From a virus, in the IMG/VR virus record IMGVR_UViG_3300027668_001405, positions 1 through 64,000 of that record: 64,000 nt of DNA; one strand, given 5' to 3'. Positions 3,911 through 64,000 of the stretch are shown piece after piece (within the stretch, counting starts at the first letter, position 1; every line of letters begins with the position of its first letter). The position numbers and the translations under genes were made by a program. The notes beneath the pieces were generated by a model. The model saw only the letters and a program-made list of their open reading frames with translations. It was not told the origin of the DNA and made no database searches.

Positions 3911-4012
3911 ATGAGCAAAGCAATAGCATATGCCTTTGTAGGAATATTTACAATCACAACAGGTCTGTATTTCTACATGGACATGATATTAAGAAGTTAT
4001 TTTATAACATGA
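3911..4012 (+). CDS. 33-residue membrane peptide
   Basis: ATG with an AGGAG site 7 bases upstream. The product is one hydrophobic helix (AIAYAFVGIFTITTGLYFY) with a short tail, so a single-span membrane peptide. Its stop overlaps the start of the carbamoyltransferase (ATGA). It could be a true peptide or a leader that couples translation. Confidence 0.45.
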   Translation: MSKAIAYAFVGIFTITTGLYFYMDMILRSYFIT

Positions 4013-8879: not shown

Positions 8880-8892
8880 GGAGTAGCATAAC

Positions 8893-17254: not shown

Positions 17255-17959
17255 ATGTTAGATGTTTTTATGCTGTCTTTCGGAGAACCCGATGCAGATG
17301 ATAATTTTAAGATTTTACAACAAAAAGCTCCTCATGCTAAACGCATTGATGGGGTAGAAGGATTGCTTAACGCACATCAACGTGCCGCTGAAGAGTCACG
17401 CACACAATACTTTTATGTATGTGATGCAGATGCAATTATACAAGAAAACTTTGCATTTAAGTTTGAGCCAAGTGATAGGCGTGATGCTTATCCTGGTGTA
17501 CCCGAAACAGAATGTGTGTTTACATATCGTAGTCACAATCCTGTTAATGATTTAATATATGGATATGGTGGAATTAAACTGTTTCCAAAGCGTAACCTAT
17601 TAGAGGTAACAGAATTTAAAGTAGACATGACAACTAGTATTGGTGCAAAGTTTGTACCTAAGTTTGAGATTGCTAACACCACAGCATTTAATACAGATCC
17701 ATTTAACGCTTGGCGCAGTGGGTTTCGTGAATGTACTAAGCTAGCAAGTAATATCATTGATCATAATAAGCAAGTTGATGATGCATACCGACTAGAAGTT
17801 TGGTGTACACGTGGCGAGAACAGACGCTATGGTGAATATGCATTAGTTGGAGCACAACAAGGACGTGACTTTGGCACCCATTACAAAGGCAACACGGCAG
17901 CATTAAGTAGAATTAATGACTGGAAATGGCTAAGGGAGAAGTTTAATGAAGCTATCTGA
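17255..17959 (+). CDS. GT-A-like glycosyltransferase candidate
   Basis: 234 residues. It opens with DVFMLSFGEPDADDN, has a helix (LLNAHQRAAEESRTQY), then FYVCDADAII, where DAD could be the DxD motif that holds the metal and nucleotide-sugar in GT-A enzymes. Similar proteins are common in marine phages. The donor and acceptor are unknown. Its 3' end overlaps the next gene by 14 bases. Confidence 0.5.
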   Translation: MLDVFMLSFGEPDADDNFKILQQKAPHAKRIDGVEGLLNAHQRAAEESRTQYFYVCDADAIIQENFAFKFEPSDRRDAYPGVPETECVFTYRSHNPVNDLIYGYGGIKLFPKRNLLEVTEFKVDMTTSIGAKFVPKFEIANTTAFNTDPFNAWRSGFRECTKLASNIIDHNKQVDDAYRLEVWCTRGENRRYGEYALVGAQQGRDFGTHYKGNTAALSRINDWKWLREKFNEAI

Positions 17960-18971
17960 GTTCCAAGAACAATATCATTGGATGAACGGACTAAGTGAAT
18001 ACTTTCAATTTACAGGACAAGATGACAAGTGGGATAATATACACAAAGCATTGTATCATGACAATTGGTTTCGTAAGCGTGATGTAATGATTGAACTATG
18101 TCAGATGTCAAACAGTAGTCCTACCCATGTAAAAGCATGGATGAATATCTTACTACATGAGAAGCTAGAAGATGTTGAGATAAAGCCACAGCTAATTGCT
18201 ACACTGTTTAGAAAGTATATGGAAGAAGATCCATTCCTTGTAAACATTTGTCAGTTTATTAACTTTTGGGCAACAGGCGATAAGGCTGCAGAAATGCCTA
18301 ACATGAATGACTTTCTAAGCAGAGGACAAGTTAGATCAAAGGTATGGATGATAAGTGAATTAGCTCAGCTAATTGATGGGCCGTTAGGTAACGTAGTATT
18401 TTACGGTGGCTGGTATAACTTCTTAGGACACATGTTGTTTAGTCAATTTGATGTTAAGAGAATATATAGCTTAGACATTGATGAGAAAGTAATAGTACCT
18501 AGCAAACGATTGTACCCTAAAGAAGTTAAGCAAGGCAGGTTCCTACCAATGAAAGTTGATTGCGATAAAATTAGATGGGGCACAGACAATACACAAACAT
18601 TATTGCAGTTAGACCAAGCTAAGAAGATTAATATGATTGATGATCATATGGCTTCAGGCAAGTACTATGCAAGTGAGAAAGACTTATGGGACGAAGCAGA
18701 TGCTAACAGTTGGGGTTACAAACGCATTGATGAAATGAATATTGTTATCAATACTAGCTGTGAACATATGACTAATGCATGGTATGAGAATTTACCAGCA
18801 GGAACATTTGTCGCAATACAAACAAACGATTACTTCTCAAATCCACAACACAGCAATTGTTGTAAGGACTTGGAAGCCGCTAAAGCAAAATATCCAATGC
18901 AGAGTATTATGTATGAAGGCGAACTCGATACACACTTATATAATAGATTTATGTTGATTGGAATAAAGTAA
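17946..18971 (+). CDS. methyltransferase-like protein with helical N-terminal part
   Basis: 341 residues. Residues 1-135 are helical. About residue 150 a Rossmann-like segment begins: NVVFYGGWYNFLG, then VKRIYSLDIDEKVI, where the acidic residue could hold SAM, and later INTSCEHMTNAWYENLPAG. The motif order resembles a class I methyltransferase, although the glycine-rich loop is atypical (YGGWYN). No catalytic pocket can be assigned. Confidence 0.45.
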   Translation: MKLSEFQEQYHWMNGLSEYFQFTGQDDKWDNIHKALYHDNWFRKRDVMIELCQMSNSSPTHVKAWMNILLHEKLEDVEIKPQLIATLFRKYMEEDPFLVNICQFINFWATGDKAAEMPNMNDFLSRGQVRSKVWMISELAQLIDGPLGNVVFYGGWYNFLGHMLFSQFDVKRIYSLDIDEKVIVPSKRLYPKEVKQGRFLPMKVDCDKIRWGTDNTQTLLQLDQAKKINMIDDHMASGKYYASEKDLWDEADANSWGYKRIDEMNIVINTSCEHMTNAWYENLPAGTFVAIQTNDYFSNPQHSNCCKDLEAAKAKYPMQSIMYEGELDTHLYNRFMLIGIK

Positions 18972-21060: not shown

Positions 21061-22170
21061 ATGTATAAGTATACAGACATCAACGAAGTACACTTGGAAA
21101 TTACACAGCGTTGTAATGCGGCTTGCCCTATGTGTGATCGTAATGAGAATGGTGGAGCAGTTAACCAGCACATCAGAGGTGATGAGAAAGAACTTACACT
21201 AAGTGATTGTATTGATATATTCCCACACGATTTTATAGCACAGTTACACACAATGTATATGTGTGGTAACTTAGGTGATCCAATCAGTGCCAGAGATACA
21301 TTAGAAGTTATGCAATGGTTTAGAGATTGCAACCCGAACATGTGGTTAAGCATGAACACTAACGCAGGCATGCAAAGTGCAGAGTGGTGGGGAGAACTAG
21401 CTAGAGTAATTGGCCGTAATGGTTGTGTTATCTTTAGTGTAGATGGTTTGGAACATACAAATCATTTGTATAGACAAAACGTAAAGTGGAAACTAGTAGA
21501 ACGCAACATGAAAGCATTCATTGCCGCAGGTGGCAGAGCTCGTTGGGACTACTTGATATTTGAACACAGTGAATGTGATGTAGAACGTGCAGAGCAGTTA
21601 GCCAAGGAATGGGGCTGTGAACGCTTTATGAAGAAGAAGACTGGACGCTTTATTAATGCAAACAGTGAGAAGAAAGATTCACATCAAGCAAGCAATCGTA
21701 AAGGAAAGAATGTATCCGAAACAATTAAGCTAGCTAAACCTAAGAAAGCTGAGTATCAAAACACAGCACTACTAAAGCAAGCAGAGATAGAAAAGACATA
21801 CGGAAGTATGATGGACTATTACAACACAGCTACTATAAAATGTAAAGTTGCAGACCTTAACAGTAAGAGCAGAAGTATGTTTGTTACAGCAGAGGGATTA
21901 ATTATGCCTTGTTGTTGGACAGCAGGTCGCATGTATAAATGGTGGCATCCAGATCATAAAGTAGAACAAATATGGGACTTCATAGATAGAGCAGGAGGCA
22001 AAGATGGAATCAGTGCTAAGATTAACGGCGTTGAAGGAGTGTTTGCAAGTGGTATTATGGACGACATACAAAACAGTTGGAAACTAGCAAGCATTAAAGA
22101 CGGCAAGCTAGGCGTTTGTGCTATGAAATGCGGCACAGAGTTTGATCCTTTTGCATCTCAATTCAAATAA
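21061..22170 (+). CDS. radical SAM/SPASM enzyme
   Basis: 369 residues. CNAACPMC puts the SAM-cluster cysteines at 18, 22 and 25. Then come MCGNLGDPISA, MNTNAGM, FSVDGLEHTNHLYR and GGRARWDYLIFEH. The C-terminal auxiliary-cluster region has TIKCKVADL, MPCCWTAG and CAMKCG. The length and layout match 15345-16502. Both are the one-piece version of the two split enzymes at 2168-3147 and 37638-38617. Substrate unknown. Confidence 0.9.
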   Translation: MYKYTDINEVHLEITQRCNAACPMCDRNENGGAVNQHIRGDEKELTLSDCIDIFPHDFIAQLHTMYMCGNLGDPISARDTLEVMQWFRDCNPNMWLSMNTNAGMQSAEWWGELARVIGRNGCVIFSVDGLEHTNHLYRQNVKWKLVERNMKAFIAAGGRARWDYLIFEHSECDVERAEQLAKEWGCERFMKKKTGRFINANSEKKDSHQASNRKGKNVSETIKLAKPKKAEYQNTALLKQAEIEKTYGSMMDYYNTATIKCKVADLNSKSRSMFVTAEGLIMPCCWTAGRMYKWWHPDHKVEQIWDFIDRAGGKDGISAKINGVEGVFASGIMDDIQNSWKLASIKDGKLGVCAMKCGTEFDPFASQFK

Positions 22171-27982: not shown

Positions 27983-28339
27983 ATGTCGACTAATAATAAT
28001 GACAAAAGCGCCTCAGTTAACTTTTTTAAGTTAACTGGATACTACAACATTAATGATATTAAGTATGATCTTCTTAAAATCATTGCCCCATATGATGGGT
28101 ATATGTATAACGAAAAAGAGACTGAGAAACTTCTCGGTGTGTTTGAATCGTACTTAGGCGATCTCAAACGTTCTTTCAAAATCTTCTCATTTGTTATTGA
28201 GAATACTGAGAAAGAAAACGCAATTACATTTGATATTCAAATTAAGATGCAAAAAGATCGAAGCCCTAAGAAGCTTAAAATTCACGTAGGGAAACTTTGG
28301 GTAGAAGTAAAACCTAAGGTAGAGCCGACAGATGCGTAA
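27983..28339 (+). CDS. unknown small protein
   Basis: 118 residues with mixed helices and strands (VFESYLGDLKRSFKIFSFVI, KKLKIHVGKLWVEV). It overlaps the glycosyltransferase start by 8 bases. Function unknown. Confidence 0.55.
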   Translation: MSTNNNDKSASVNFFKLTGYYNINDIKYDLLKIIAPYDGYMYNEKETEKLLGVFESYLGDLKRSFKIFSFVIENTEKENAITFDIQIKMQKDRSPKKLKIHVGKLWVEVKPKVEPTDA

Positions 28340-29513
28340 GCTATTTTACATGGGGTTAGAACCCTACGAAGGCAGGTATACATTACAGTTGCAAGACTGG
28401 AGTGAACGTGCTTTCAAGAAGCGTGGGATAGAATATGTAGTTGTTCCTGGCGAGACAATTGACGACACTAAAGCAATTAGTGTTGGACAAGTATTAGATG
28501 CACATGGACGTTCGTTCTTTGGAATGAGCCAACTAATGAATCTAGTACAGATGATGCGTAGCGGAGAATGTAGTGGGGAGGATGTTGTTTTCTTTGAAGA
28601 CATGTTTCAACCTGGTATGGAATCTCTACCATACATTATGTGTCAGATACCAGAAGAGCAACGACCTAAAATATTCTTGCGTTGTTTAGCACAGGCAGTA
28701 GACCCAGATGACTTTGTTCATGTATGGGGTATGAGCAAGTGGATGTCTTTATACGAGCAGATGTGTAATGAGATTCCTAACGTTCATATACTAGCAACAA
28801 ACGAAGAAATGGTTGCACATATGCGTATTGCTAATTGGACTGCTCCAATTTTTAATATCAGTGGACTTAGCTTTGGTAAGGAAGAAGTTCTTACTAGAGT
28901 GGAACACAAAGTTAAACCATGGAAAGAACGTAGTGACCGTGTAGTATTTGCGGCACGTTTTGATCAAGAGAAACAGCCAGACTTTTTTATGGATGTTATT
29001 GAAAAGGTTAAAGCAATACGTCCTGACGTTGAGTTTGCAGTGCTAAGTGGCGGACCATTACGTAGCAACAATCAGAAGTATTTAGATCGTGCGTTACAGA
29101 TGGAACAAGATGGTAAACTAACAATCCTTAAAGACTTACAAAAGAATGATTACTACAATGTAGTTAATGATTCTAAAGTTATGTTCAATTGTGCATTGCA
29201 AGACTGGGTATCTAATACCGTAAGTGAAGCAGACGCATTAGGTTGTAATGTTGTTTATCCTGCATACAGAAGTTTCCCTGAAACATTTGCTAACGACTAT
29301 ACTAGACTTTACACACCGTGGAGTCAAGACAGTGCAGTTGAAAAGATTCTAGCTGGTCTAGATTGGCCTAGTGAGAACATGGGAAAAATTAGTAACTGGA
29401 CTGATGGTACAATCGATCGTATGATTGACATCATGGAAGGAAGCTACAAGAAGAACATATGGGCTCGTAACGATAATCGTTATAGAGATCACGTAGCGGA
29501 GGCAAAGTATTAA
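28332..29513 (+). CDS. GT-B fold glycosyltransferase (GT4-like)
   Basis: 393 residues. The second half carries the recognisable donor domain: VVFAARFDQEKQPDFFMDVI (start of the nucleotide-sugar binding half), VEFAVLSGGPL, and a final SEADALGCNVVYP that stands for the E-x7-E-like region of GT4 enzymes. The first half is the acceptor domain. It would transfer a sugar to DNA, a glycan or a protein. A sugar epimerase gene follows directly. Confidence 0.75.
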   Translation: MRKLFYMGLEPYEGRYTLQLQDWSERAFKKRGIEYVVVPGETIDDTKAISVGQVLDAHGRSFFGMSQLMNLVQMMRSGECSGEDVVFFEDMFQPGMESLPYIMCQIPEEQRPKIFLRCLAQAVDPDDFVHVWGMSKWMSLYEQMCNEIPNVHILATNEEMVAHMRIANWTAPIFNISGLSFGKEEVLTRVEHKVKPWKERSDRVVFAARFDQEKQPDFFMDVIEKVKAIRPDVEFAVLSGGPLRSNNQKYLDRALQMEQDGKLTILKDLQKNDYYNVVNDSKVMFNCALQDWVSNTVSEADALGCNVVYPAYRSFPETFANDYTRLYTPWSQDSAVEKILAGLDWPSENMGKISNWTDGTIDRMIDIMEGSYKKNIWARNDNRYRDHVAEAKY

Positions 29514-30470
29514 ATGAGAATACTAGTAACAGGAGCCAGTGGTTATATTGGTGCTCAAACATGTAAGGCGTTATCGCAGTATCATGAAATAGTAGCAGTT
29601 GATCGCAACACAGTCAAGCACAACTACTTTAAAGAGTTTTATTGCGAAGACTATGGATCGTTTGAAGTGCAACAGTTACTACTCAATATTGATGCTGTGG
29701 TGCATATTGGTGCAACTAGTTTAGTAGGCCCTAGTGTTTTAGACCCTAGCAAGTACTACAAAAATAATGTTGTATCAACTATTGCATTGTTAGATGCATG
29801 CAAGGCACAAGGCGTTAAACGTGTTGTCTTTGCAAGCAGTGCCGCAACTTATGGGGAACCAAAGGAAGATGTATGTACAGAATCTGGACAGCATGAACCG
29901 GTTAACCCTTATGGTTGGAGTAAGCGTATGACAGAGATTATGCTAGCAGATTATGCTACAGCATATGGAATTAACAGTGTTAGTTGTCGCTTCTTTAACG
30001 TAGCAGGTGCAGACTTAGAAGGCGAGTTTGGACAGGAGAAACAAGCTACACATATTATTGCTAAGATTATGGAACTTGCTTTGGATAACAAAGAGTTTAC
30101 ATTAAATGGCGATGGCTTTGGCACACCAGATGGAACATGTGTAAGAGATTACGTACATGTACATGATGTTGCTAGAGGTTTAGGTATGGCATTAGACTTC
30201 ACAGAGAACAACAAAGGCGCATTTAGATTTAACATGGGTAACGGAAAAGGTTACAGCAACATGGATATTATAAATGCAGTAAAAGAGCACACGCCTTTAG
30301 ATCCAACGTATAAAGTTGGACCAGCACGTGCAGGCGACCCAGCCACACTAATAGCAGACAGTACATTAGCTAACAGGGTATTAAAATGGACACCAAATTA
30401 TGGGCTTGACACAATAGTAAAGACAGCGTATAATTATTATATCAAAAACAATAAGACATCCACGTCTTAA
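29514..30470 (+). CDS. NAD-dependent sugar epimerase (GalE-like)
   Basis: 318 residues, an extended short-chain dehydrogenase. GASGYIG at 7-13 binds NAD; YGWSK gives the catalytic Tyr133 and Lys137; SSAATYGEP supplies the serine and threonine. The closest family is UDP-glucose 4-epimerase. It directly follows the glycosyltransferase and probably prepares its donor. A related nucleotide-sugar epimerase is possible. Confidence 0.85.
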   Translation: MRILVTGASGYIGAQTCKALSQYHEIVAVDRNTVKHNYFKEFYCEDYGSFEVQQLLLNIDAVVHIGATSLVGPSVLDPSKYYKNNVVSTIALLDACKAQGVKRVVFASSAATYGEPKEDVCTESGQHEPVNPYGWSKRMTEIMLADYATAYGINSVSCRFFNVAGADLEGEFGQEKQATHIIAKIMELALDNKEFTLNGDGFGTPDGTCVRDYVHVHDVARGLGMALDFTENNKGAFRFNMGNGKGYSNMDIINAVKEHTPLDPTYKVGPARAGDPATLIADSTLANRVLKWTPNYGLDTIVKTAYNYYIKNNKTSTS

Positions 30471-38635: not shown

Positions 38636-39391
38636 ATGAAGATAGCCGTATTCGGTTGTGGTTTCGTAGGAGGAACCGTAGCAAACTTTCTAACTGAAAC
38701 AACAGACATAGAAGTAATTAAAGTAGACCCAAAATTATATCCAGATGTAGATCCATTAGATGCTGCAATTGCCGCTGATGGAATTATTATTGCGGTACCA
38801 ACACCAAGCAACCCAGACGGAAGTTGCGACGATAGTATGATACAGCAAGTATTATCTATGTGTGATTATCGTTCAAAGATACTAATCAAAAGCACAGTAA
38901 CACCAGACTTGCTACAAAACTATGATGTTAATGTAGTATACAATCCAGAGTTCTTAAGAGAAGCACACGCAGAAGAAGACTTTAAGAATCAACATACATT
39001 TATACTAGGACATCATGATAACAACAGAGCAGATGCTTTTTGGTGGGCAGATGTGTTCCAACGTAACATAACTGAATGTGTATTTACAAACAGACGTACA
39101 GCAAGCATGATCAAATATACACACAATTCTTGGCTAGCTACTAAGGTTGCATGGTTCCATGAGCTATATGCTAACCTACCACCTGAAGTAGACTATGGCA
39201 CTATTACTAGTACCTTAGCTAGATTTGACACTATTGGTAAAACACACATGGATGCACCAAATAGTCAAGGAACACTAGGTTATAGTGGTAATTGTTTCCC
39301 AAAAGACGTAAAAGCCTTGACAAAGGAAGTAAATCATAGTATACTTAGTACTGTAAATGAGACAAATAATAAACTTAATAAAGGAGATTAG
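38636..39391 (+). CDS. UDP-glucose/GDP-mannose dehydrogenase, short form
   Basis: 251 residues. VFGCGFVGG at 5-13 binds NAD; VPTPSNPDGS, YNPEFLREA and the catalytic GNCFPKD (C220) are all present. This oxidises the C6 of UDP-glucose (or GDP-mannose) to the acid. The protein stops soon after the central domain and lacks the C-terminal UDP-binding domain of ordinary 390-450 residue enzymes. Either it uses another binding mode or it is a shortened phage version. Confidence 0.85.
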   Translation: MKIAVFGCGFVGGTVANFLTETTDIEVIKVDPKLYPDVDPLDAAIAADGIIIAVPTPSNPDGSCDDSMIQQVLSMCDYRSKILIKSTVTPDLLQNYDVNVVYNPEFLREAHAEEDFKNQHTFILGHHDNNRADAFWWADVFQRNITECVFTNRRTASMIKYTHNSWLATKVAWFHELYANLPPEVDYGTITSTLARFDTIGKTHMDAPNSQGTLGYSGNCFPKDVKALTKEVNHSILSTVNETNNKLNKGD

Positions 39392-41132: not shown

Positions 41133-41524
41133 GTAAAATAACGGATTGGGCAGATGACTTGTCCATGCTAGAAGGCACAGAAAGACTAGTACATCTTATA
41201 GATTTAGCTAGGTTGCCTACAACATTGCCAGAAGCATTAAGAACTAAAGAGAATCTTATAGGCGGATGCATGTCTAAGATATGGGTTGATGTTGGTATAG
41301 TTGAAGAAAAGGTCAAAGTATATTATGATAGTGATGCAATGATTACAAAAGGTATTACACATGTAGTATGCGATTGCTTTTCAGATATACCAGTTGCAGA
41401 TTCAAAACAATTGAATAAAGCTAGCTTTGACAACTTAGGAGTAAAAGAACTTCTAACTTCTCAAAGACGGAATGGGCTAGGAAGTCTAATAGATACAATA
41501 ATACATAAGGTAAACAAACTATGA
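41129..41524 (+). CDS. sufE: SufE-like sulfur-acceptor protein
   Basis: 131 residues, the usual SufE length. IGGCMSKIWV places the acceptor cysteine at C47, as in bacterial SufE, and YYDSDAMITKGI is the second conserved segment. SufE takes persulfide sulfur from the SufS desulfurase and hands it to Fe-S assembly. No SufS, SufB or SufC gene is in the window, so it would boost the host system. This suits a genome full of Fe-S radical SAM enzymes. Confidence 0.85.
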   Translation: MSKITDWADDLSMLEGTERLVHLIDLARLPTTLPEALRTKENLIGGCMSKIWVDVGIVEEKVKVYYDSDAMITKGITHVVCDCFSDIPVADSKQLNKASFDNLGVKELLTSQRRNGLGSLIDTIIHKVNKL

Positions 41525-42615
41525 ACGAAGGAAGTTATATTTTTACAAGCGAAAGTGTCAGTGATGGGCATCCAGATAAGGTAGCAGACCAAATCTCAGA
41601 TGTACTAGTTGACGCAGGACTAAAGAACGGTGATGAGACAACACGAGTTGCCGTAGAGACACTTGTAACCACTAACCATGTTACGGTAGCGGGTGAGGTA
41701 AAAAACTTCAATGTCAGTGACGATGATGTTAAAGAGTTAATTAAGAATAAAGTCAAAGAGATTGGCTACGAACAAGATGGATTCCATTGGGATAAACTAA
41801 AAATCTATAATGAGATTCATGCACAAAGTGGAGACATTGGTTTAGGTACTAATGACTTTGGAGCAGGAGATCAGGGAATGATGTTTGGCTATGCAAGTAA
41901 TGAGAACGAAGCATTTATGCCAGCACCTATTTACTTCTCGCATAAGATTCTACAAGAACTTAAATTTATGCGTTTAGATGGATATGAGTTTTTACTACCA
42001 GATGCTAAGTCACAAATTAGTGTGCAGTACGAAGGTGGTAAGCCTAAGCGTATTGATCAAATTGTAGTATCACATCAGCACAAGGACGGATTTGTTCATA
42101 GTGTTGTAGGTCCTGTTAGGAGTGCATGTGAAAAGGTATTAGGCGATTTAATTGACAAAAATACTGTATGGCATATTAACCCAACAGGCAACTTTGTTAT
42201 TGGTGGACCAGATGGAGACACTGGTGTAACAGGACGTAAGATTATCGTAGACACATATGGTGGATTTGCACCACATGGCGGTGGAGCATTTAGTGGAAAA
42301 GATCCTACTAAGGTTGATCGTTCAGCGGCTTACATGGCACGTTGGTTAGCAAAAAATGTAATAGCAGACGATATGGCAGATTGGTGTAATATCCAATTAA
42401 GCTATGCTATTGGCGTAAAGGAACCTACTAGCATTTATGTAGATTCTAATGGACACAACAGATCAATTCAGAACTTTATTAAGAACAATGTTGACCTTAC
42501 ACCAAAGGGAATCATTGATAAGTTTGATTTGTTTAACTTTAACAAGTACAGTGCGAATTGTACATACGGACACTTTGGTGATAAGGATGTACCGTGGGAA
42601 AAAATAGGATGGTAA
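41521..42615 (+). CDS. metK: S-adenosylmethionine synthetase
   Basis: 364 residues, close to the usual ~380. SVSDGHPDKVADQISD, GAGDQGMMFGYA, GGPDGDTGVTGRK and GGGAFSGKDPTKVDRSAAY are the classical MetK signatures for ATP, magnesium and methionine. It joins methionine and ATP to make SAM. ATGA overlap with SufE. This would supply the many radical SAM enzymes and methyltransferase-like proteins encoded here. Confidence 0.95.
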   Translation: MNEGSYIFTSESVSDGHPDKVADQISDVLVDAGLKNGDETTRVAVETLVTTNHVTVAGEVKNFNVSDDDVKELIKNKVKEIGYEQDGFHWDKLKIYNEIHAQSGDIGLGTNDFGAGDQGMMFGYASNENEAFMPAPIYFSHKILQELKFMRLDGYEFLLPDAKSQISVQYEGGKPKRIDQIVVSHQHKDGFVHSVVGPVRSACEKVLGDLIDKNTVWHINPTGNFVIGGPDGDTGVTGRKIIVDTYGGFAPHGGGAFSGKDPTKVDRSAAYMARWLAKNVIADDMADWCNIQLSYAIGVKEPTSIYVDSNGHNRSIQNFIKNNVDLTPKGIIDKFDLFNFNKYSANCTYGHFGDKDVPWEKIGW

Positions 42616-55494: not shown

Positions 55495-55788
55495 ATGGCG
55501 ATTGAACGGAAAGACAGATCCTTCGATCTGATCTTTGACCAGGTATCTATGGATCATGTTCCTGCTGAATATATCAGAGAAATTATGGTTGACTTAGGTA
55601 CTGGTGAAAGAATAACACTAACTAAAGATGACTTGTTGCTGATTAAGAACAAATCAGCTGATGACATTATATCTGCATTAAGTGTAGATAACATGTCTAA
55701 TATTAGTTTGAAGCTAGACTATGAAGCAATTAAGTCAGATGTGTTACGTGGAGTAACAGGCTTCTTAGGAAAGCATTTTGACGAATAG
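55495..55788 (+). CDS. small acidic protein, unknown
   Basis: 97 residues. RSFDLIFDQVSMDHVPAEYI, then RITLTKDDLLLIKN. Conserved-looking, alpha/beta. A T4 gp33-like late co-activator is one idea by size but no motif supports it. Overlaps the next gene by 11 bases. Confidence 0.55.
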   Translation: MAIERKDRSFDLIFDQVSMDHVPAEYIREIMVDLGTGERITLTKDDLLLIKNKSADDIISALSVDNMSNISLKLDYEAIKSDVLRGVTGFLGKHFDE

Positions 55789-56467
55789 TAACAATATTTG
55801 GATGTGTGGCATCCCCGGTAGTAGATGGAGCGGAATTGATATACAGATCCGCTCCGTGCTATCGTGCGATCGTTCAGATGAAACACGAGCTAGAACCTTT
55901 TACCATAGAGCATATAACCCCTCGGACAGCAATAACGGACATCGTGGCTCTTATTGGGGACCCGGTATGGGCTGTGGAGAGGACTGGACTGATTTCAATC
56001 ATTTAACAAAAGATAAGATTGAGACTGATATACATAACGTTTTTAACGGAGATGGATATCGAGTTATAAAGAACCATTTCTTAGCTCGTCACTTTAATTT
56101 AGATTACATTTGGAATAACTTTCCAGGTGATAAAATAGTACTCATTTATAGAGAACCTCAAAAGAGTTTTGCATGGTGGAGTGAAGTAATGGATTTTAGT
56201 GATCATCACTACCCAAACTACACGCCAGGATACACAGACTACAACACTATGCGTGAGCTACTTTGGAAAGAGAGTGCAAAAATTACAGACTTTGCACTAC
56301 AAAAAGGAATACAGTTTAAACCATACAATGTATCAGAATTTAAACATTGGAATGGATACGATATTGATATAGCTTCGGAGTATGAGATGATAAATATTAC
56401 TAAGCACAATGATGTATATATTGCATCAGTAACAATACCGGAAAAACTAAATGCAGTCCCCCTTTAA
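55778..56467 (+). CDS. sulfotransferase-like protein
   Basis: 229 residues with a TTG start; AGGA lies 8 bases upstream and the start overlaps the preceding gene. MCGIPGSRWSGIDIQIRSVL could be the PAPS phosphate loop (residues 9-28) and KIVLIYREPQKSFAWWSEV matches the sulfotransferase strand with R-x-P and S that bind the 3'-phosphate. It would transfer sulfate from PAPS, perhaps made by the kinase at 6023. First gene of the radical SAM cluster. Confidence 0.6.
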   Translation: MTNSNNIWMCGIPGSRWSGIDIQIRSVLSCDRSDETRARTFYHRAYNPSDSNNGHRGSYWGPGMGCGEDWTDFNHLTKDKIETDIHNVFNGDGYRVIKNHFLARHFNLDYIWNNFPGDKIVLIYREPQKSFAWWSEVMDFSDHHYPNYTPGYTDYNTMRELLWKESAKITDFALQKGIQFKPYNVSEFKHWNGYDIDIASEYEMINITKHNDVYIASVTIPEKLNAVPL

Positions 56468-57155
56468 AACACCATACCATTTTGATAAGTTTAAAACTGA
56501 TCACGAAGGCGAATATTCTAAGAGTATTGGCGTGTTTCAAGGTGATTGGGCTGATGAGATTGTGCATGCAAGAAGCAAGGCTATGGACGAACAGAAATAC
56601 AATACACAACGATACGAACATGCTGCCAATGCTAAGAGCGAGAATCATACAGAAGAAGATAAAGAAAACACAGATGGTAAGCCTTCTGCAATGATGTTCC
56701 GCAAGATAAATTTTGATAAATACCCAGGAGAATTTCCACTATTCCAAAAGATAGTGGAGCATCTAAAGTTTGATACAAGTAAGAAACTGACATGTAAATT
56801 TAATGATCAATATCCAAATGATCAGCTTATGTGGCACATAGACAACTTGCCCGGTAACCCACGTAAGGAACGTGTAATTGACAATCCAGAGTTTAACTAC
56901 GCTAATGACAATAAGATACGTTTTTTAATTACGATGGAAGATTGGGAACCAGGACAGATAATACAGTTTGGTAACAGAATATATACTCAATGGAAAGCAG
57001 GTACTGCTTTTACTTGGGAATGGAGTACGCTACCACACTTAACATGGAACGGCAGTTGGACCAAACGTCCATGTCTACAACTAACAGGAACTGCAACGCC
57101 AGATACATGGAATATTGTAAATGAAGGCAATGCAGAAACAACCTATAAAATTTAA
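56451..57155 (+). CDS. 2-oxoglutarate/Fe(II)-oxygenase-like protein
   Basis: 234 residues. In a jelly-roll pattern, MWHIDNLPGN supplies H129 and D131, LPHLTWNG supplies H196 and KRPCLQLTG supplies R206, matching the H-x-D...H iron triad and the Arg that holds 2-oxoglutarate. Such enzymes hydroxylate amino acid side chains or sugars. The first 80 residues are a charged extension. It precedes a twitch radical SAM gene by 12 bases. Confidence 0.6.
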   Translation: MQSPFKTPYHFDKFKTDHEGEYSKSIGVFQGDWADEIVHARSKAMDEQKYNTQRYEHAANAKSENHTEEDKENTDGKPSAMMFRKINFDKYPGEFPLFQKIVEHLKFDTSKKLTCKFNDQYPNDQLMWHIDNLPGNPRKERVIDNPEFNYANDNKIRFLITMEDWEPGQIIQFGNRIYTQWKAGTAFTWEWSTLPHLTWNGSWTKRPCLQLTGTATPDTWNIVNEGNAETTYKI

Positions 57156-57167
57156 AGGATAATAATT

Positions 57168-58592
57168 ATGGCAGAAAACAAGTTACCCTCGGATACGTTT
57201 TGTATACTACCGTGGATACATTTAAGCACAAGACCAGACGGAAGTATGCGTGTGTGTTGTACAGCTAATGCAAGTGCAGTAGGAGCAACAAATGATAAAG
57301 TACATGGCGGTCGAGTTGGAATTGTAAAAACAGATGATGGTAAACCTGCTAACTTAAACAACAGTGATTTGAATAGTGCGTGGAACAATAGTTACATGCG
57401 TGGCGTTAGACAACAAATGATGGCTGGTGAACAACCACCTAGTTGTGTAAAATGTTATAAAGAAGAAGCGGCTGGACACAGGTCTAAAAGACAGTGGGAA
57501 ACAGACTATTGGATTAAAGACGGTATCGACGTTGAAGATTTAATAAGGGAAACTTACGAAGATGGAAGTACTGATTCTAAACTACGCTATATTGATATCC
57601 GTATGGGGACGAAATGCCAGTTGGGGTGCGTTATGTGTAGCCCACATGACTCTTCAGGCTGGGTAAAAGATTGGAACAAACTATATCCACAAATTACAAA
57701 TGAATCCTTAAAAGAAACTATGAATTGGGATGCTAAAGGTAAGACCTTTGGTGCAAACTATAACTGGCACAAAAACAACCCAACGTTTTGGGATCAGTTT
57801 TATGCACAGATTCCTTATATCAGACAACTATACTTTGCTGGTGGTGAATCAACAGTTATTGAAGAACATTATTCAATCCTATCTAAAGTTATTGAGATGG
57901 GTTACGCACATCAAATTGAAGTGCGTTATAACAGTAATGGTATTGAACTACCAGATCGTTTGCTAGAGCTATGGACACACTTTGAAAAGGTACGTTTCCA
58001 TTACAGTATTGACAGCATTGGTCCAATGAATGATTATATTCGTTATCCAAGTGAATGGTCACATCAGCTAGCAATGTTTGAACGCCTAGATCAAAAGACA
58101 AGTAACAACGTAGAAATTACAATTGCGTGTGCAGTTAATGCACTTAACATTCATTACATTCCAGACTTCCTTAAATGGAAACTTCAGGATAGCGGACTTA
58201 AGAAAACAAATATGTGGCCTTTTGGAGCAGGTGGTATTAACTATCACTTTGTATACTGGCCCGGACATTTGAATGTTAAGATATTGCCAGATGAATTCCT
58301 AGACAAAACAGAAGCCAAGTATGAAGAATTTATTCAATGGTGGAAAGAGAATTGGGAGCTAGGTGTTCCAAGTTGGCATAAGGGTAAAGTAGACTATCAG
58401 AAATGGGAAGATGCTAGTTATGGTATCAAACGTTTACGTGGTATGATTAGCTTTGCTCGTAGTGAAGATTGGACACGCCGACTACCCGAGTTTAGAGAGT
58501 ATATAAACAAGTTAGATGAATTGCGTGGAACAGACTTCCGTGCAACATTCCCAGACATGGCTTACTTGCTTGATGAACCGGATGACACCTGA
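57168..58592 (+). CDS. twitch-domain radical SAM enzyme 1
   Basis: 474 residues. It begins with a half-SPASM (twitch) module: FCILPWIHLS (C12), MRVCCTA (C30, C31) and CVKC (C93, C96), for an auxiliary Fe-S cluster. Then the SAM core CQLGCVMC (C150, C154, C157) and FAGGESTV, YNSNGIEL, YSIDSIGPMN. The auxiliary module comes before the core, the reverse of ordinary SPASM enzymes. Such proteins are seen in marine phages without a known substrate. First of three here. Confidence 0.88.
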   Translation: MAENKLPSDTFCILPWIHLSTRPDGSMRVCCTANASAVGATNDKVHGGRVGIVKTDDGKPANLNNSDLNSAWNNSYMRGVRQQMMAGEQPPSCVKCYKEEAAGHRSKRQWETDYWIKDGIDVEDLIRETYEDGSTDSKLRYIDIRMGTKCQLGCVMCSPHDSSGWVKDWNKLYPQITNESLKETMNWDAKGKTFGANYNWHKNNPTFWDQFYAQIPYIRQLYFAGGESTVIEEHYSILSKVIEMGYAHQIEVRYNSNGIELPDRLLELWTHFEKVRFHYSIDSIGPMNDYIRYPSEWSHQLAMFERLDQKTSNNVEITIACAVNALNIHYIPDFLKWKLQDSGLKKTNMWPFGAGGINYHFVYWPGHLNVKILPDEFLDKTEAKYEEFIQWWKENWELGVPSWHKGKVDYQKWEDASYGIKRLRGMISFARSEDWTRRLPEFREYINKLDELRGTDFRATFPDMAYLLDEPDDT

Positions 58593-58788
58593 GGTTCGTA
58601 AAGAGGCCCATCGACGTTTTTGGATGATCAAGGGCCACTTAGCCTGTAAGGATTGGGACGATGATGCATTATACAAAATGCACGAAAGTTACTTGAAGCG
58701 TTTATGGGGTAATGAAGAAGCATACCTTTGGGAAGAAGGTTTTGAAGAAGCATACTTTAAGTTAACAAATGAACAACCATCAAACTAA
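58582..58788 (+). CDS. small helical protein between two radical SAM genes
   Basis: 68 residues from ATG 58582 (11-base overlap with the radical SAM gene upstream; an ATG at 58573 is also possible). Highly helical and aromatic (RRFWMIKGHLACKDWDDDAL; YLKRLWGNEEAYLWEEGF). It overlaps the next radical SAM gene by 20 bases. Its place between the enzymes makes it a candidate partner or substrate peptide, though no leader/core pattern is plain. Confidence 0.6.
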   Translation: MTPEVRKEAHRRFWMIKGHLACKDWDDDALYKMHESYLKRLWGNEEAYLWEEGFEEAYFKLTNEQPSN

Positions 58789-59980
58789 TACAGACACACA
58801 TTGCACACTGCCTTGGAGTGGTGCGGCAGTTGATGCTGGTGGCAGGGTTGTACCTTGTTGTAGATGGATGGGACCACATGGTGACTTAGACAATGCTCCT
58901 AAAATAGCTAATGGATTAGAAAACGCAAGGAACAGTAAGTTCTTTGAAACAGTACGACAAAGTATGTTAGATGGAAAACGTATTAATGGATGTAAGAAAT
59001 GTTGGGAAGAAGAAGATTTCTTTGGTCCTGAACATCAACAGCGTTGGTTACGTTTACAGCACAATCATAACATACAGGCACTGTCAGTTAATGGAGTAGC
59101 AAACATGACTACCACTGCTCCTACAAAGCTACGGTACCTAGAAACAGGTATAAGCAACCTATGTAACTTTGCTTGTGTAATGTGCAACTCTGCAACCAGC
59201 AGTACGATACACAATATAACAGTCAAAGGCAAAATGCCTAAGAGCTTCCATCAAAACAATAGCGTAATAGATTCAGACTTATCAGAGCTACAATATTTGA
59301 AATTTGTAGGTGGTGAGCCCATGATGGAACGCAAGCATGATGAATTATTAGAAAAGGTTGTTGCATTAAACAATAACCCAACATCACTAGAATTAGAGTA
59401 CCATACTAATGCAAGTATATTTCCAAGCGAGCGTGTAACTACTGCATGGAAGAAAGTAAAATCAGTAAGGATTATATTTAGTTTAGACGGTGTGTATGAG
59501 AAATCTAAACTACAGCGTCCAGGTAGATACAAATGGCAAGATGTAGAAGATACAGTACATAAATATGTACAGCTAGCAGACAAAGTTAATATTATATTCT
59601 CAAGCAATACAGTGTTGACAGCATTGAATGTTGGGCAAGTAATAGATATACTTGAATGGTTATACTCGAGAATAGGACACAAACAACTTGGGTGGTTTAA
59701 TGTACATAAACTGTTTAATGAAAGGTTTAAGTATATAGACCTACGTAATATAAGTCAAGAGAAGAAAACTATTATAAGAAAAGAGTTAACAGATTGGGCG
59801 GCAACAGGTCACCCAGCACTAGACACTCCGCTGAAATCAGTGTATAATGAGACTATAGAAGCACTAGATACACCACCTAGTGGTACATTGACTCTTAGTA
59901 GAGAGTTAATATTAGAAAAGCATTTCCAAAATGATATATGGAAGTACTTCAAAGAAGAATTAAAGGACCTAGAAATATAA
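58769..59980 (+). CDS. twitch-domain radical SAM enzyme 2
   Basis: 403 residues. Auxiliary module HCTLPWSGAA (C12), VVPCCRW (C30, C31), CKKC (C75, C78); SAM cluster CNFACVMC (C132, C136, C139); then KFVGGEPMM, YHTNASIF, FSLDGVYEKS. Same architecture as its neighbour but diverged, so a paralogue, not a fragment. The next gene begins inside its stop codon (TAATG). Confidence 0.88.
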   Translation: MNNHQTNTDTHCTLPWSGAAVDAGGRVVPCCRWMGPHGDLDNAPKIANGLENARNSKFFETVRQSMLDGKRINGCKKCWEEEDFFGPEHQQRWLRLQHNHNIQALSVNGVANMTTTAPTKLRYLETGISNLCNFACVMCNSATSSTIHNITVKGKMPKSFHQNNSVIDSDLSELQYLKFVGGEPMMERKHDELLEKVVALNNNPTSLELEYHTNASIFPSERVTTAWKKVKSVRIIFSLDGVYEKSKLQRPGRYKWQDVEDTVHKYVQLADKVNIIFSSNTVLTALNVGQVIDILEWLYSRIGHKQLGWFNVHKLFNERFKYIDLRNISQEKKTIIRKELTDWAATGHPALDTPLKSVYNETIEALDTPPSGTLTLSRELILEKHFQNDIWKYFKEELKDLEI

Positions 59981-60516
59981 TGAAATACATTTTAGTAGCT
60001 CTAAAAGCAGAATTGCCAGAGCATAATTTAGACCCTACATCATACAAAGTATGGTATACTGGTGTTGGTAAAGTAAATGCATCTATATGGGCAACACTTG
60101 CATGCATACAAAAAGACTGTGAAGCAGTTATTAACTACGGAACAGCAGGTGCATTTAATAGTGAACTAGCAGAACAGTTACTACACATTGGTACAGTAAA
60201 GCAACGTGACATGGATACAAGGCCACAAGCAGAACTAGGTGTTACTCCGTTTGAAGACAGTGGATTTGAAGGTGACATTAAACTTAGTAATAGTGCATAT
60301 ACATGTAGCACTGGTGATAACTTTGTAACAGAGGTTCCAGAATTAGAAAGTGATTGTGTTGATATGGAAGCATATGCAATTGCTAAAGTATGTAAGCACT
60401 TCCAAAAGAATTGCATAGTTTACAAATATATTAGTGACCTAGCAGATTCAGATGCTGCGGCAACGTGGGTAGAGAATCAACACAAAGGAGCAGATGCTTT
60501 TATAGCAATGACCTAG
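59980..60516 (+). CDS. MTA/SAH-nucleosidase-like phosphorylase-fold protein
   Basis: 178 residues from ATG 59980. VALKAELPEHN, TGVGKVNASIW and NYGTAGAFN resemble the purine nucleoside phosphorylase/MTAN fold; DMEAYAIAKVC carries the ribose-binding Met-Glu and ISDLAD the catalytic Asp. MTAN cleaves S-adenosylhomocysteine, methylthioadenosine and also 5'-deoxyadenosine, the by-product of radical SAM enzymes. It sits between two radical SAM genes, so by-product removal is the likely task. A little shorter than bacterial MTAN (about 230). Confidence 0.75.
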   Translation: MKYILVALKAELPEHNLDPTSYKVWYTGVGKVNASIWATLACIQKDCEAVINYGTAGAFNSELAEQLLHIGTVKQRDMDTRPQAELGVTPFEDSGFEGDIKLSNSAYTCSTGDNFVTEVPELESDCVDMEAYAIAKVCKHFQKNCIVYKYISDLADSDAAATWVENQHKGADAFIAMT

Positions 60517-60517
60517 T

Positions 60518-61774
60518 ATGAGTGGATTTTGTTCATTACCTTTTGTACAGTACAGCACATATAACGGAGGCCGTTATAGACTTTGTTGTATGGCTAAAGA
60601 ACCAACTACACTTGTTAACCAAGAAGAGTTGGGTATTAATGGTACATGGAATCACGACTATATTAAAGATGTAAGACGTAGAATGACTGCCGGTGAGAAG
60701 TTATCCGAGTGCAGTGAATGCCATCACTTAGAACGTAATGGAATAATGAGTTCACGTCAATGGGAAAACAAAGTATGGGCAGATGTAATTGATGGAATCG
60801 TAGCAGACGCAAGTGCTAATGATTGGGAAGTTGATCAGCCATTACAGTTTGACTTTAGATTAGGAAACCTATGTAACCTACAGTGTCAGATGTGTAACAA
60901 AGAAGCATCACACTTGGTAAGCGTAGAACGTGCGGCAATGATTAAACGTGGACTAGGAGCTGACCACCCAGATTGGGAAGGACAGATTGCAAGCAAGAAA
61001 GAAGCACTTCTGCAACCTGGAATTGATTGGGTAGACTTTAAAGCCATGTTACCATATGCTCGTAAGATAAAACTAATAGGTGGCGAACCTACAGTAGCAA
61101 CAGATATGTTTAAGCTACTAGATATTGCAACAGAAAGCGGACACGCAGAACACATTGAATTAAGCTTCTACACAAATATTACAAACATGCAAGACAAGTG
61201 GCTAGCTCAGTTAGCTAAGTTTGAGAAAGTCATTGTTAACTGTTCACTAGAAGGAATGGGCGACATGAATGACTATTTGCGTCCACCTAGTAAATGGGCT
61301 AGTGTGTGGAAGAACTTTGATAAATTAGTACAGTTTGCTGATACTAAACCGGGTAAGCGTATTAAGGTACGGGTTACTACAGTAAACCAAATGACTAATG
61401 CATTGCACATAGTTCCTTTTTGGAAGTTTATGCATGATTACCAGATGACTAGTAATAGAGGCATTGGAATGAGTACCAATCAGCTAGTGGAGCCTGCTTA
61501 CTACAGCATGGCACATGCACCTGAATGGTTGAAAGAACAACAACGTGAACAGATTTTGGAATTTCTTAAGTCCATTGACAACAGCCCTCACTTTGAGCAA
61601 TATGAAGAACCACTCATGGAAGTGGTTAACTTTAGTCTTGATAGTGAGCACAAGTTTGATGCTAACATCATGCAACAATATGTCAAGGTCACCGAAAACT
61701 ACGACAGATTCAGAGGACACATGGTTACCAAAGTGTCTCCCGAATTTGAACGAATTAAAAAAGACTCCGAGTGA
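60518..61774 (+). CDS. twitch-domain radical SAM enzyme 3
   Basis: 418 residues. Auxiliary module FCSLPFVQYS (C5), YRLCCMA (C23, C24), CSEC (C65, C68); SAM cluster CNLQCQMC (C119, C123, C126); KLIGGEPTV, YTNITNM and NCSLEGMGD follow. Third member of the family in 5 kb. It lies one base after the nucleosidase gene and the amidinotransferase gene comes next. Confidence 0.88.
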   Translation: MSGFCSLPFVQYSTYNGGRYRLCCMAKEPTTLVNQEELGINGTWNHDYIKDVRRRMTAGEKLSECSECHHLERNGIMSSRQWENKVWADVIDGIVADASANDWEVDQPLQFDFRLGNLCNLQCQMCNKEASHLVSVERAAMIKRGLGADHPDWEGQIASKKEALLQPGIDWVDFKAMLPYARKIKLIGGEPTVATDMFKLLDIATESGHAEHIELSFYTNITNMQDKWLAQLAKFEKVIVNCSLEGMGDMNDYLRPPSKWASVWKNFDKLVQFADTKPGKRIKVRVTTVNQMTNALHIVPFWKFMHDYQMTSNRGIGMSTNQLVEPAYYSMAHAPEWLKEQQREQILEFLKSIDNSPHFEQYEEPLMEVVNFSLDSEHKFDANIMQQYVKVTENYDRFRGHMVTKVSPEFERIKKDSE

Positions 61775-61810
61775 TTACTCTTGGACATGTAAATGGAGAG
61801 TTAGATTCTA

Positions 61811-63019
61811 ATGAACTTTGGTTTTAAAAGTTATAACAGTTGGGACCCACTAAAGAAAGTATTGTTGGGTAGTACACTACCTGAGGGCTTCTTTGCAGAT
61901 TTCCCAGACCCTAAAGTAGCAGATGCTATGACTACAGTTAACGAGGAAACTCGTGAAGACTTAAACAACTTGCAATCAGTATTTGAGAGCAAGGGCATTG
62001 AAGTACATAGGATGCCAGAAGCATGTGTATTAAAGAATAGAAGGTTTAACAGTGTAGCTGAATTTATAGACATGCATGGATATATTCCTAAACCTTTTAA
62101 TGCACCAAGAGATGACCAAATCATTTTTGGAGAGCATATGATTACAGGAACATCAAATCCTGTACATAGAATATTCCATGGTACTAGAGAAGATACATTT
62201 AACATATTTGATAAAAAAGCACCCTGGGCAGGCTGTGATGATTTAATTGATATTGCAGATCCCAATCAAGAACTAAACATAATTGAAGCAGTTGGCAAAC
62301 CTAACTTTACAATGAGTTGGCCTAGTATTATGAGAGCAGGCAAGGACATTATAATTGATATACATGATTTTAATGGACCTACTAGACAGCTAGCTGAAAA
62401 CTGGGTAGACCGTTTTAATGAGAAGTTTGGTTATAAGTTTAGAATTAATACAACTACAATGGGTGGACACACTGACGCAGTAATGGCACTTGTTAAACCT
62501 GGGCTTATAATAAGTCATGTTAATGTAAACAAGTATGAAGAAACATTTCCAGGTTGGGATGTAATTAAAATAGATAGAACACACAACGATCATACAGTAG
62601 CTTGGAACGAATTCCGTATCTCAGAAAAAGATAAATGGAGAGGTAACAAACTAAATCCAGTAGCAGATTATTGGATTGCAGGACAAGAACACAACGTAGC
62701 ATTGAATAAATTTATTGACTTATACATGCACCCTAGCGTTGGCAGTTGTTTTGAAACAAACTTTGATGTAAACTGTGTAAGCATAGACGCTAATACAGTA
62801 GTTGCAAGTGGACCTAGTAAAGTGTTAGAAGATAAGCTAGGCAAGCACAACGTAGATGTAATTACGTCTAACATGAGGCACAGATTCTTTTGGGATGGTG
62901 GCTTACATTGTGCTACAGTTGATTTATACCGTGAAGGCGAGATGGAAGATTACTTTCCTGAACGCAGTGCAGGAGTTGATTTTGGTAAAGTGTGGGGCAA
63001 TAACGAAACACGCCGGTAA
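61811..63019 (+). CDS. amidinotransferase-family protein
   Basis: 402 residues. The start FKSYNSWDPLKKVLLGS is characteristic of the glycine/inosamine amidinotransferase group of the ADI superfamily. The catalytic His is likely in MGGHTDAVMALVKPG and the cysteine region in FDVNCVSIDANTV. These enzymes move an amidino group from arginine to an amine, giving guanidino compounds. In this cluster it could modify a peptide side chain or an amino sugar. Confidence 0.75.
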   Translation: MNFGFKSYNSWDPLKKVLLGSTLPEGFFADFPDPKVADAMTTVNEETREDLNNLQSVFESKGIEVHRMPEACVLKNRRFNSVAEFIDMHGYIPKPFNAPRDDQIIFGEHMITGTSNPVHRIFHGTREDTFNIFDKKAPWAGCDDLIDIADPNQELNIIEAVGKPNFTMSWPSIMRAGKDIIIDIHDFNGPTRQLAENWVDRFNEKFGYKFRINTTTMGGHTDAVMALVKPGLIISHVNVNKYEETFPGWDVIKIDRTHNDHTVAWNEFRISEKDKWRGNKLNPVADYWIAGQEHNVALNKFIDLYMHPSVGSCFETNFDVNCVSIDANTVVASGPSKVLEDKLGKHNVDVITSNMRHRFFWDGGLHCATVDLYREGEMEDYFPERSAGVDFGKVWGNNETRR

Positions 63020-63027
63020 ATTAATTG

Positions 63028-63035
63028 CATAAATA
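63028..63035 (+). promoter_or_regulatory. T4-type late promoter motif
   Basis: CATAAATA in the 47-base gap after the amidinotransferase gene, 32 bases before the next ATG. Confidence 0.45.
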
Positions 63036-63066
63036 TAATTATCAACGCATATAATAAAGGAAAACA

Positions 63067-63945
63067 ATGACTCGCATAGCTAAAGATATTACAGCAGGCA
63101 AGGACTTCATAGTCCATGTATTCGATGCATCTGAAGTTGACGTCAACGACAATTATAGATTATACGAAGCGTTTGAAAGTGGATGGCCTGTAGTTATTAA
63201 GAACTATAAAATAGAAGGACTTGATTACGATTACTATGATAATTTACCAGACTGGAATATTACAGATAACAAATGGGTAATGCCCTGGTACAATAGTCAT
63301 ATTAAGGCTCGTGACAGACTACGTAACGAGCGTGACTGGAGTGAAGATGAAATAGATTTGTTCCATAAAAAGCACAAACAATCAAACAAGGCATGGACTG
63401 ATAGTTTCGATAATATGTTTCCACAGTATAACACGACTGAGAAAATGCTCAGTCACAGGTACAATACATTAGTAGAGAACAAACTACACTTAGACGAGCT
63501 GGACGAACAGCATACTGGTAATGAACAGCAAATGCGTATGTTTGTACAGCTAGATAAAAAACGTCCTAGAGTATTATCATTTGGTCCTGACTTGGAAAAA
63601 ATGTACAATGATTACAAAGATGAGTTTAACTTGGGTGAGATTGACAAAAGCAATACACACAAATTTATAACTGAGATGCGTGATCGTTGTGTATGGAACG
63701 ACAAGGCTTGGGACCAGTTTCATCACCCACTACATTACATAACGTTTGATCCAGGTGACATTTGGTTCTTTAATGCACAATGGATTACACATCAAATTGT
63801 GTTTGGTACTAAGCTACAATGCTTTGAATGTGATATTCAAAACGATAGCTTACTACACCCAGAGTGGGCAATGAAGCAAAGAATACAAACTTTAGATAAC
63901 AACGACAATTCAGCATGGGGCGGTACTACCGTCAGCATGGAATAA
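63067..63945 (+). CDS. possible oxygenase-fold protein
   Basis: 292 residues. The late segment HYITFDPGDIWFFNAQWITH, then QIVFGTKLQCFECDI, resembles the end of jelly-roll oxygenases (a GD..F turn, a His, then a strand). The H-x-D first half of the iron site is not clear, so activity is uncertain. It starts behind AAAGGAAAACA and continues the modification cluster. Confidence 0.45.
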   Translation: MTRIAKDITAGKDFIVHVFDASEVDVNDNYRLYEAFESGWPVVIKNYKIEGLDYDYYDNLPDWNITDNKWVMPWYNSHIKARDRLRNERDWSEDEIDLFHKKHKQSNKAWTDSFDNMFPQYNTTEKMLSHRYNTLVENKLHLDELDEQHTGNEQQMRMFVQLDKKRPRVLSFGPDLEKMYNDYKDEFNLGEIDKSNTHKFITEMRDRCVWNDKAWDQFHHPLHYITFDPGDIWFFNAQWITHQIVFGTKLQCFECDIQNDSLLHPEWAMKQRIQTLDNNDNSAWGGTTVSME

Positions 63946-63957
63946 CAAGGAATAATA

Positions 63958-64000
63958 ATGAATAAACCAGTAAACGCATGGAGCGAGTTTCAACCATTAC
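63958..64000 (+). CDS. start of a second amidinotransferase-like gene (partial)
   Basis: Only 14 residues are visible, MNKPVNAWSEFQPL. The pattern (V-N-x-W/Y-x-E/S-x-x-P-L) matches the opening of glycine amidinotransferase-like proteins and of the gene at 61811. An AAGGAATAATA site precedes the ATG. The gene continues beyond the window. Confidence 0.4.
   Translation, partial: MNKPVNAWSEFQPL

Follow-up and report, generated by a model that had tools for sequence, protein, structure and literature searches.

An operon with fifteen radical SAM genes in a marine T4-like virus and its counterpart in predatory bacteria suggest a self-supplied pathway that may modify a glycan

Pathways built on radical SAM (rSAM) chemistry comprise, to our knowledge, one to a few rSAM enzymes. 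In the aminocyclitol pathways (streptidine and 2-deoxystreptamine, with BtrN, AprD4 and StrB1), an AGAT-type amidinotransferase and a PLP aminotransferase work alongside oxidation by a twitch-type rSAM enzyme, and the locus described here resembles them through profile matches to StrB1 and SxtG; those pathways have one or two rSAM enzymes, whereas this locus has 15, is phage-borne and contains no recognised cyclitol synthase. RiPP clusters (polytheonamide type, ranthipeptides, PqqE/SkfB-type) likewise combine several rSAM/SPASM enzymes with oxygenases, but a precursor gene, an RRE/PqqD, a protease and an exporter were not recognised in the phage cluster. Among viruses, the 183-kb marine T4-like genome TARA_ERS488813_N000010 carries 12 rSAM genes together with ATC, grx and paaD (PMC5332604, Nishimura et al. 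2017). As far as the accessible part of that paper describes it, this genome is like our source virus in being marine and T4-like, of similar size and rich in rSAM and Fe-S assembly proteins, and judged by the published description it is probably kin of the source virus lineage; in the same part, the rSAM proteins are mentioned only as a number, in connection with Fe-S, and the operon, its order, a MetK/nucleosidase/APRT loop, a bacterial counterpart and the idea of a pathway are absent. In the accessible portion of a second study, rSAM cassettes of the pelagimyophages MAGV3 and MAGV16 share a hypervariable region with glycosyltransferases, which the authors tie to surface alteration (PMC7029224, Zaragoza-Solas et al. 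2020); those cassettes are added between two genomes, in contrast to the ordered pathway of about 25 genes found here (PMC7029224). No description of this ordered cluster or pathway was found in the open-access literature, subscription papers and preprints lying outside the scope of the search.

The locus was found in IMG/VR record IMGVR_UViG_3300027668_001405, and the window, the whole 64,000-base stretch analysed, corresponds to bases 1-64000 of a 137,797-base parent record that is linear and possibly incomplete. The source is a marine T4-like virus, whose DNA polymerase is nearest in an identity comparison to those of large T4-like phages (~45-47%). Genes were called on stretches of the parent record with a home-made caller, and start positions may be off; all gene names in the cluster were assigned by homology, and every gene given with coordinates below lies on the + strand. 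The nine overlapping or closely spaced same-strand genes of the initial annotation were all recovered as ORFs (55778-63945), with overlaps or gaps of at most 47 bases. The window holds less than one third of the cluster, since the run goes on through g98-g119, with 12 more rSAM genes among them, to give an operon that spans 55,778 to ~85,062 of the parent record (~29 kb) without a strand change. What had been seen as three rSAM enzymes among nine genes is accordingly the beginning of a cluster with 15 distinct rSAM genes among ~31, in which 27 of the 30 junctions overlap or lie within 20 bases.

The rSAM genes of the cluster are g91, g93, g95, g99, g100, g103, g104, g108, g109, g112, g113, g114, g116, g118 and g119, and the record as a whole encodes 23 rSAM proteins by the CxxxCxxC motif, or 21 domains by PF04055. 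Three lie in the window: g91 (57168..58592), the most widespread core gene; g93 (58769..59980), an accessory gene present in 3/5 close relatives at 49-53% identity; and g95 (60518..61774), a core gene at 84-90% with an ortholog in the Bdellovibrionia cluster described below. Auxiliary cysteines had been reported to precede the SAM cluster in these three N-twitch rSAM enzymes, and this is confirmed because all pass the curated cut-off of 170 bits for the NCBIfam family NF033640 (N_Twi_rSAM, N-terminal twitch), with scores of 418.7 (g91), 212.7 (g93) and 294 bits (g95). Most of the other rSAM proteins belong to the same family, which has no assigned reaction and is here set in a conserved genomic setting. 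The possibility raised at the outset that the three are recent, inactive duplicates was ruled out, as they are at most ~28% identical to one another and have intact motifs; the highest identity of any rSAM pair in the record is 54% (g203/g205), CxxxCxxC is intact in every rSAM ortholog, and dN/dS relative to the closest ortholog is 0.04-0.28, with dS near saturation. The cluster rSAMs have diverged, remain intact and evolve under purifying selection.

The remaining genes in the window are less uniform. The first, g89 (55778..56467), present in 4/5 close relatives, encodes a P-loop protein in which the sulfotransferase-like motifs GIPGSRWSG and YREPQKSF stand without a Pfam, PHROG, NCBIfam or relevant PDB match; the second, g90 (56451..57155), encodes a putative Fe/2OG oxygenase that conserves HxD...H...R and the HxD...H triad, yet has no family match in Pfam or confident match in the PDB, and is accessory (3/5 relatives). 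With both calls based on motifs, the sulfation and hydroxylation steps proposed earlier are guesses at motif level. Gene g92 (58582..58788) encodes a small accessory protein found in 1/5 relatives at 38% identity, and g97 (63067..63945) is a core gene (74-78%) of no recognised family, with no useful match in a PDB profile search. The amidinotransferase call held for g96 (61811..63019), which, like g98 (63958..65025 of the parent record; 63958..64000 in the window), is a true AGAT-family protein: profile searches gave E-values of 9e-33 to HsvA and ~1e-29 to AGAT and also matched SxtG and StrB1, and the PRD, GH.D (HxD) and HC elements bearing the catalytic Asp/His/Cys are invariant. As the amidinotransferase of the pathway, g96 fared less well, being accessory and absent from 3/5 relatives, whereas g98 is invariant.

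Beyond the window, the 12 further rSAM genes are accompanied by a PLP aminotransferase (g101, Pfam 9e-6), an Asp/Asn-hydroxylase-like protein (g107), an accessory nitroreductase (g110), a protein that is SDR-like by motifs (g111) and two SPASM-like pieces (g115 and g117). The products of g105 and g106 are paralogs of each other for which a PDB profile search yielded no useful match and profile comparison with g27 was negative; a predicted structure of g105 (pLDDT 52) was set aside. The pairing of an aminotransferase with an AGAT-type amidinotransferase that marks aminocyclitol pathways is present in g101 and g98, which are the invariant partners of the rSAM genes, lying within about 2.5 kb of each other in both phage lineages in which they were found and adjoining in a bacterial cluster (G024). 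Their closeness in all three settings suggests a route from ketone to amine to guanidine, in which an alcohol would be oxidised by a twitch rSAM enzyme or by the SDR-like g111, then transaminated and then amidinated, as in aminocyclitol pathways.

The search for the same gene set in other marine viral genomes showed gene order to be kept in five related contigs (G002, G005, G008, G014 and G015), where about 20 core genes remain in order with proteins mostly 60-92% identical and g97 lies inverted, on the opposite strand, in every one. Closely related viral records carry 16-25 rSAM domains each. A second, larger phage lineage, with contigs of up to 257 kb, has g91, g98, g100, g101, g104, g109 and g119 as a contiguous core at 25-82% identity and 10-11 N-twitch rSAMs per record; for g91, identity is 82-91% in the close phages, 64-65% in the second lineage and 55-64% in Bdellovibrionota. 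Chance co-location of the rSAM genes was ruled out by the 21 PF04055 matches in 137.8 kb and the order kept in relatives. The region could also be a loose collection of auxiliary genes that have nothing to do with each other and share no product, as marine T4-like phages do hold rSAM cassettes in a hypervariable region, according to the accessible part of the pelagimyophage study (PMC7029224), and g92, g93, g96, g102, g110 and g114-g116 vary, which with g90 make up the accessory genes across relatives. We consider such a collection very improbable, because some 20 genes keep order and identity in five relatives and the core is shared by orthology with a second phage lineage and with bacterial chromosomes. 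Independent occurrence of the genes, put forward earlier as an argument against a pathway, was thus not seen for the core; g92, g93 and g96 are absent from 4/5, 2/5 and 3/5 relatives. The cluster of G008 also contains an accessory AsnA/class-II aaRS-like gene, and a fibre-like Calx-beta-type protein is encoded inside the clusters of G008 and G014. In the single-virus assembly AG-345-D19, several AGAT-like stretches were seen, with only distant kinship.

A g91 profile scan of 84,980 species genomes returned relatives at 55-64% identity mainly in Bdellovibrionota metagenome-assembled genomes (bins). These hold a small group consisting of g91, g119 and g34 (21061..22170), a radical SAM/SPASM enzyme that co-occurs with the other two in bacteria, often with g27 (17255..17959), a GT-A-fold glycosyltransferase-like gene beside the orthologs of all three, and its methyltransferase-like pair g28 (17946..18971). 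In the Bdellovibrionia genome G024, a homologous 30-kb cluster lies on a 917-kb contig with an rpoD-type sigma factor gene ~6 kb away, and from the contig size and neighbours it is unlikely to be a stray phage contig. It contains homologs of g95, g97, g98 (45%), g100, g101 (43%), g103, g104, g105, g107, g109 (46%), g112, g113, g116, g117 and g118, and at its edge those of the phage radical SAM gene g58 (37638-38297) and its SPASM-like partner g59 (38294-38617). In a tree of 63 rSAM proteins, each of ten phage enzymes (g91, g95, g100, g103, g104, g109, g112, g116, g118 and g202) joins its own Bdellovibrionia ortholog with starred support. The pairing of at least ten rSAM paralogs with their own bacterial orthologs implies that the many-step pathway predates the split between phage and bacterium. 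Since related viruses keep the gene order and chromosomes of predatory bacteria carry a homologous cluster, we regard it as very probable that the cluster is a single phage-borne multi-step biosynthetic pathway; this part of the initial annotation, which had proposed several steps on one substrate, is borne out by gene order, the second lineage, the Bdellovibrionia cluster and purifying selection, with its sulfation and hydroxylation steps staying at the level of motifs.

Relatives of g98 occur in only 4/369 Bdellovibrionota genomes, so the island is sporadic there. Such a distribution would also suit a diffusible small molecule (an antibiotic, a siderophore-like compound or a signal) derived from a sugar or an amino acid and set free by lysis or during predation, as would the resemblance of the operon layout to a natural-product cluster, the presence of SxtG, HsvA and StrB1 among the AGAT homologs and the AsnA-like gene of G008. 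We nevertheless think a diffusible product quite unlikely, since no NRPS, PKS, carrier protein, exporter or resistance gene was recognised in the cluster by Pfam and an exported metabolite would bring little gain to a lytic phage.

5'-Deoxyadenosine, a product of rSAM enzymes, inhibits them and is cleared by bacterial MTA/SAH nucleosidases, after which adenine is salvaged by APRT. The nucleosidase call was upheld for g94 (59938..60516, with a later ATG at 59980 as the likelier start), which matches Pfam PNP_UDP_1 (2.3e-15) and aligns with PDB MTANs across its VDMEA and SDLAD region (the MEA and D-A-D catalytic region), while scoring under the NCBIfam equivalog cut-offs for nucleosidases. It had been taken to act on the pathway substrate, but clearance of the by-product 5'-deoxyadenosine is the better reading. 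Elsewhere, the phage encodes an S-adenosylmethionine synthetase (MetK; g65, 41521..42615), found in 11/20 related viral records against 135/50,697 public phage records, as well as APRT (g143), PRPP synthetase (g134), IscS/NifS (g145), NifU (g146), an A-type carrier (g142), a ferredoxin (g149) and a SufT/PaaD-like protein (g150). MetK would make the SAM that each rSAM enzyme uses up to give methionine and 5'-deoxyadenosine, g94 would split the latter, and APRT and PRPP synthetase would salvage the adenine; IscS, NifU, the A-type carrier, the SufT-like protein and the ferredoxin would build and reduce the Fe-S clusters. Fe-S enzymes often fail when matching electron carriers are missing (PMC8896826). 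We infer that these genes probably form a supply-and-recycling loop serving the rSAM cluster.

In order to rationalise the set as a whole, we propose that about 15 different rSAM enzymes act in sequence with g101 and g98, sometimes also g96, and with further partners such as the putative Fe/2OG oxygenases, the nitroreductase and the SDR-like protein; the individual reactions and the purpose of the cluster are inferred from gene content. The substrate may be a sugar or glycolipid on a glycan built by the phage's own glycosyltransferases, and the product an amino/guanidino-decorated glycan that would alter the host or virion surface. The model of g27 (pLDDT 90) points this way, its top Foldseek matches all being glycosyltransferases, with low TM-scores (0.3-0.5) and no useful match in a PDB profile search. 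The phage further carries a GT1 glycosyltransferase with a nucleotide-sugar epimerase (g46 and g47, 28332..30470) and a gene of the UDP-glucose/GDP-mannose dehydrogenase family (g60, 38636..39391), and g98, which resembles aminocyclitol and other small-molecule amidinotransferases, stays near an aminotransferase. In one Bacteriovoracaceae genome, the 23-kb rSAM region contains 4 of the 17 GT2 genes (a post hoc P of about 2e-6); this enrichment was observed in bacterial relatives rather than in the phage cluster. Neither a polysaccharide exporter nor a flippase was seen, and no cyclitol scaffold synthase or inositol dehydrogenase was recognised by Pfam in the 30 cluster proteins, several of which lack a family match. 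A glycan or glycolipid bearing amino/guanidino sugars is the best reading of the substrate, held tentatively and at less than an even chance.

The main rival to the glycan is a peptide or protein: the rSAM/SPASM-twitch enzymes, the hydroxylase-like protein, the Fe/2OG oxygenases and the amidinotransferases would hypermodify side chains in a ribosomal peptide or in a virion protein such as a fibre, each rSAM at its own site. SPASM/twitch domains are found mostly on peptide-modifying rSAMs, and cluster proteins have SPASM matches in Pfam. The sole relevant match of g91 in a PDB profile search is SkfB, a peptide maturase, many such maturases stand among the NCBIfam families ranking after NF033640 for the in-window rSAMs, and g107 matches Asp_Arg_Hydrox. 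The domain architecture and the SkfB match count against a glycan, as do the low TM-scores of g27 and the presence, in two Bacteriovoracaceae genomes, of a PqqD-like gene no more than ~0.5 kb from a different N-twitch rSAM; the fibre-like protein of G008 and G014 is a further point for a peptide, but is missing from other relatives. PqqD-like RREs were absent from the three phages and two Bdellovibrionia genomes tested (G000, G005, G008, G024 and G026), and the Bdellovibrionia cluster does without a virion protein. The conserved small gene that the initial annotation had suggested as substrate was not found: the operon leaves almost no intergenic room and has no conserved small ORF except the SPASM-like g117, though a precursor could lie outside it. 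As candidate precursors, g88, which groups with upstream phage genes, and the accessory g92 and g102 were rejected. A few relatives carry g11-like small ORFs within the cluster, but the window has g11 itself at position 5510, well away from it. Modification of a peptide is in our view unlikely, if less so than release of a small molecule.

Hypermodified DNA or RNA bases made by rSAM and PLP enzymes would be another end point, amino-acid-decorated bases being known phage products, and the phage does have GTP cyclohydrolase, PTPS and QueE-like genes and matches to thymidylate synthase and thymidine kinase. Those genes sit outside the cluster, a TGT-fold transglycosylase (PF01702) was not found in nine related viral records, and the chromosomal cluster of Bdellovibrionia has no recognised DNA-modification neighbours, which leaves base modification the least probable of the readings considered.

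Taken as one statement, a self-supplied rSAM pathway that most likely acts on a glycan falls somewhat short of an even chance. The fuller proposal, a complete self-supplied radical-chemistry pathway with fifteen rSAM steps whose product would be a glycan with guanidino/amino modifications, or some other conjugate, of an undescribed kind and which has passed between marine phages and predatory Bdellovibrionota, is possible but on balance doubtful. At least ten ancient rSAM paralogs remain associated here as separate steps, so that a new class of radical biosynthesis becomes testable, and the invariant g98-g101 pair offers a first step open to assay. The uncharacterised N_Twi_rSAM family gains a function-rich genomic setting, and the shared pathway links marine phages to predatory bacteria. 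The virus itself appears to lift host limits on SAM, 5'-deoxyadenosine poisoning and Fe-S supply together.

The gene for g97 (63067-63945), a core protein of no recognised family, lies on the plus strand in the window and is in the opposite orientation in every relative examined. In two related marine viral contigs, G008 (L078) and G014 (L080), a gene for a fibre-like Calx-beta-type protein stands between g97 and the AGAT-family amidinotransferase gene g96, and in G008 this interval additionally holds a class-II aaRS/AsnA-like gene. Four AGAT-like stretches (L185-L187; MH319720, MH319724, MH319727) were also observed in the single-virus assembly AG-345-D19, a distant relation of this phage that originates from a Pacific extracellular sort gate plate.

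Immediately upstream of the cluster a trio of genes is kept, which comprises a putative trypsin-like (HtrA-type) serine protease with a GNSGGP motif (49594-50904), followed downstream by a putative MoxR-type AAA ATPase (51438) and a putative VWA-like protein (52985). Farther away, g17 and g18 (7821-10407) encode a TctC-like substrate-binding protein and a TctA tricarboxylate-transporter membrane subunit, full-length in this phage (Pfam 4e-86), both with homologs in the marine viral contig G005 and in L023-L026. GTP cyclohydrolase I (30485-31171) shares the record with PTPS and QueE-like matches, but no TGT enzyme accompanies these preQ0-type genes; a PF01702 search covering nine related viral records gave no match. 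A protein with a long PATDPATDP repeat occupies the end of the parent record (136559-137797; L013).

Homologs of the Nol-like carbamoyltransferase (4009-5517; PHROG 2e-97) lie close to N-twitch radical SAM genes (NF033640) in several bacterial loci (L116, L118, L122, L128). In two Bacteriovoracaceae genomes, PqqD-like genes (G022:C7:103258 and G025:C17:28039) are found about 0.5 kb or less from another N-twitch radical SAM gene, a neighbourhood that possibly represents a RiPP locus employing this enzyme family.
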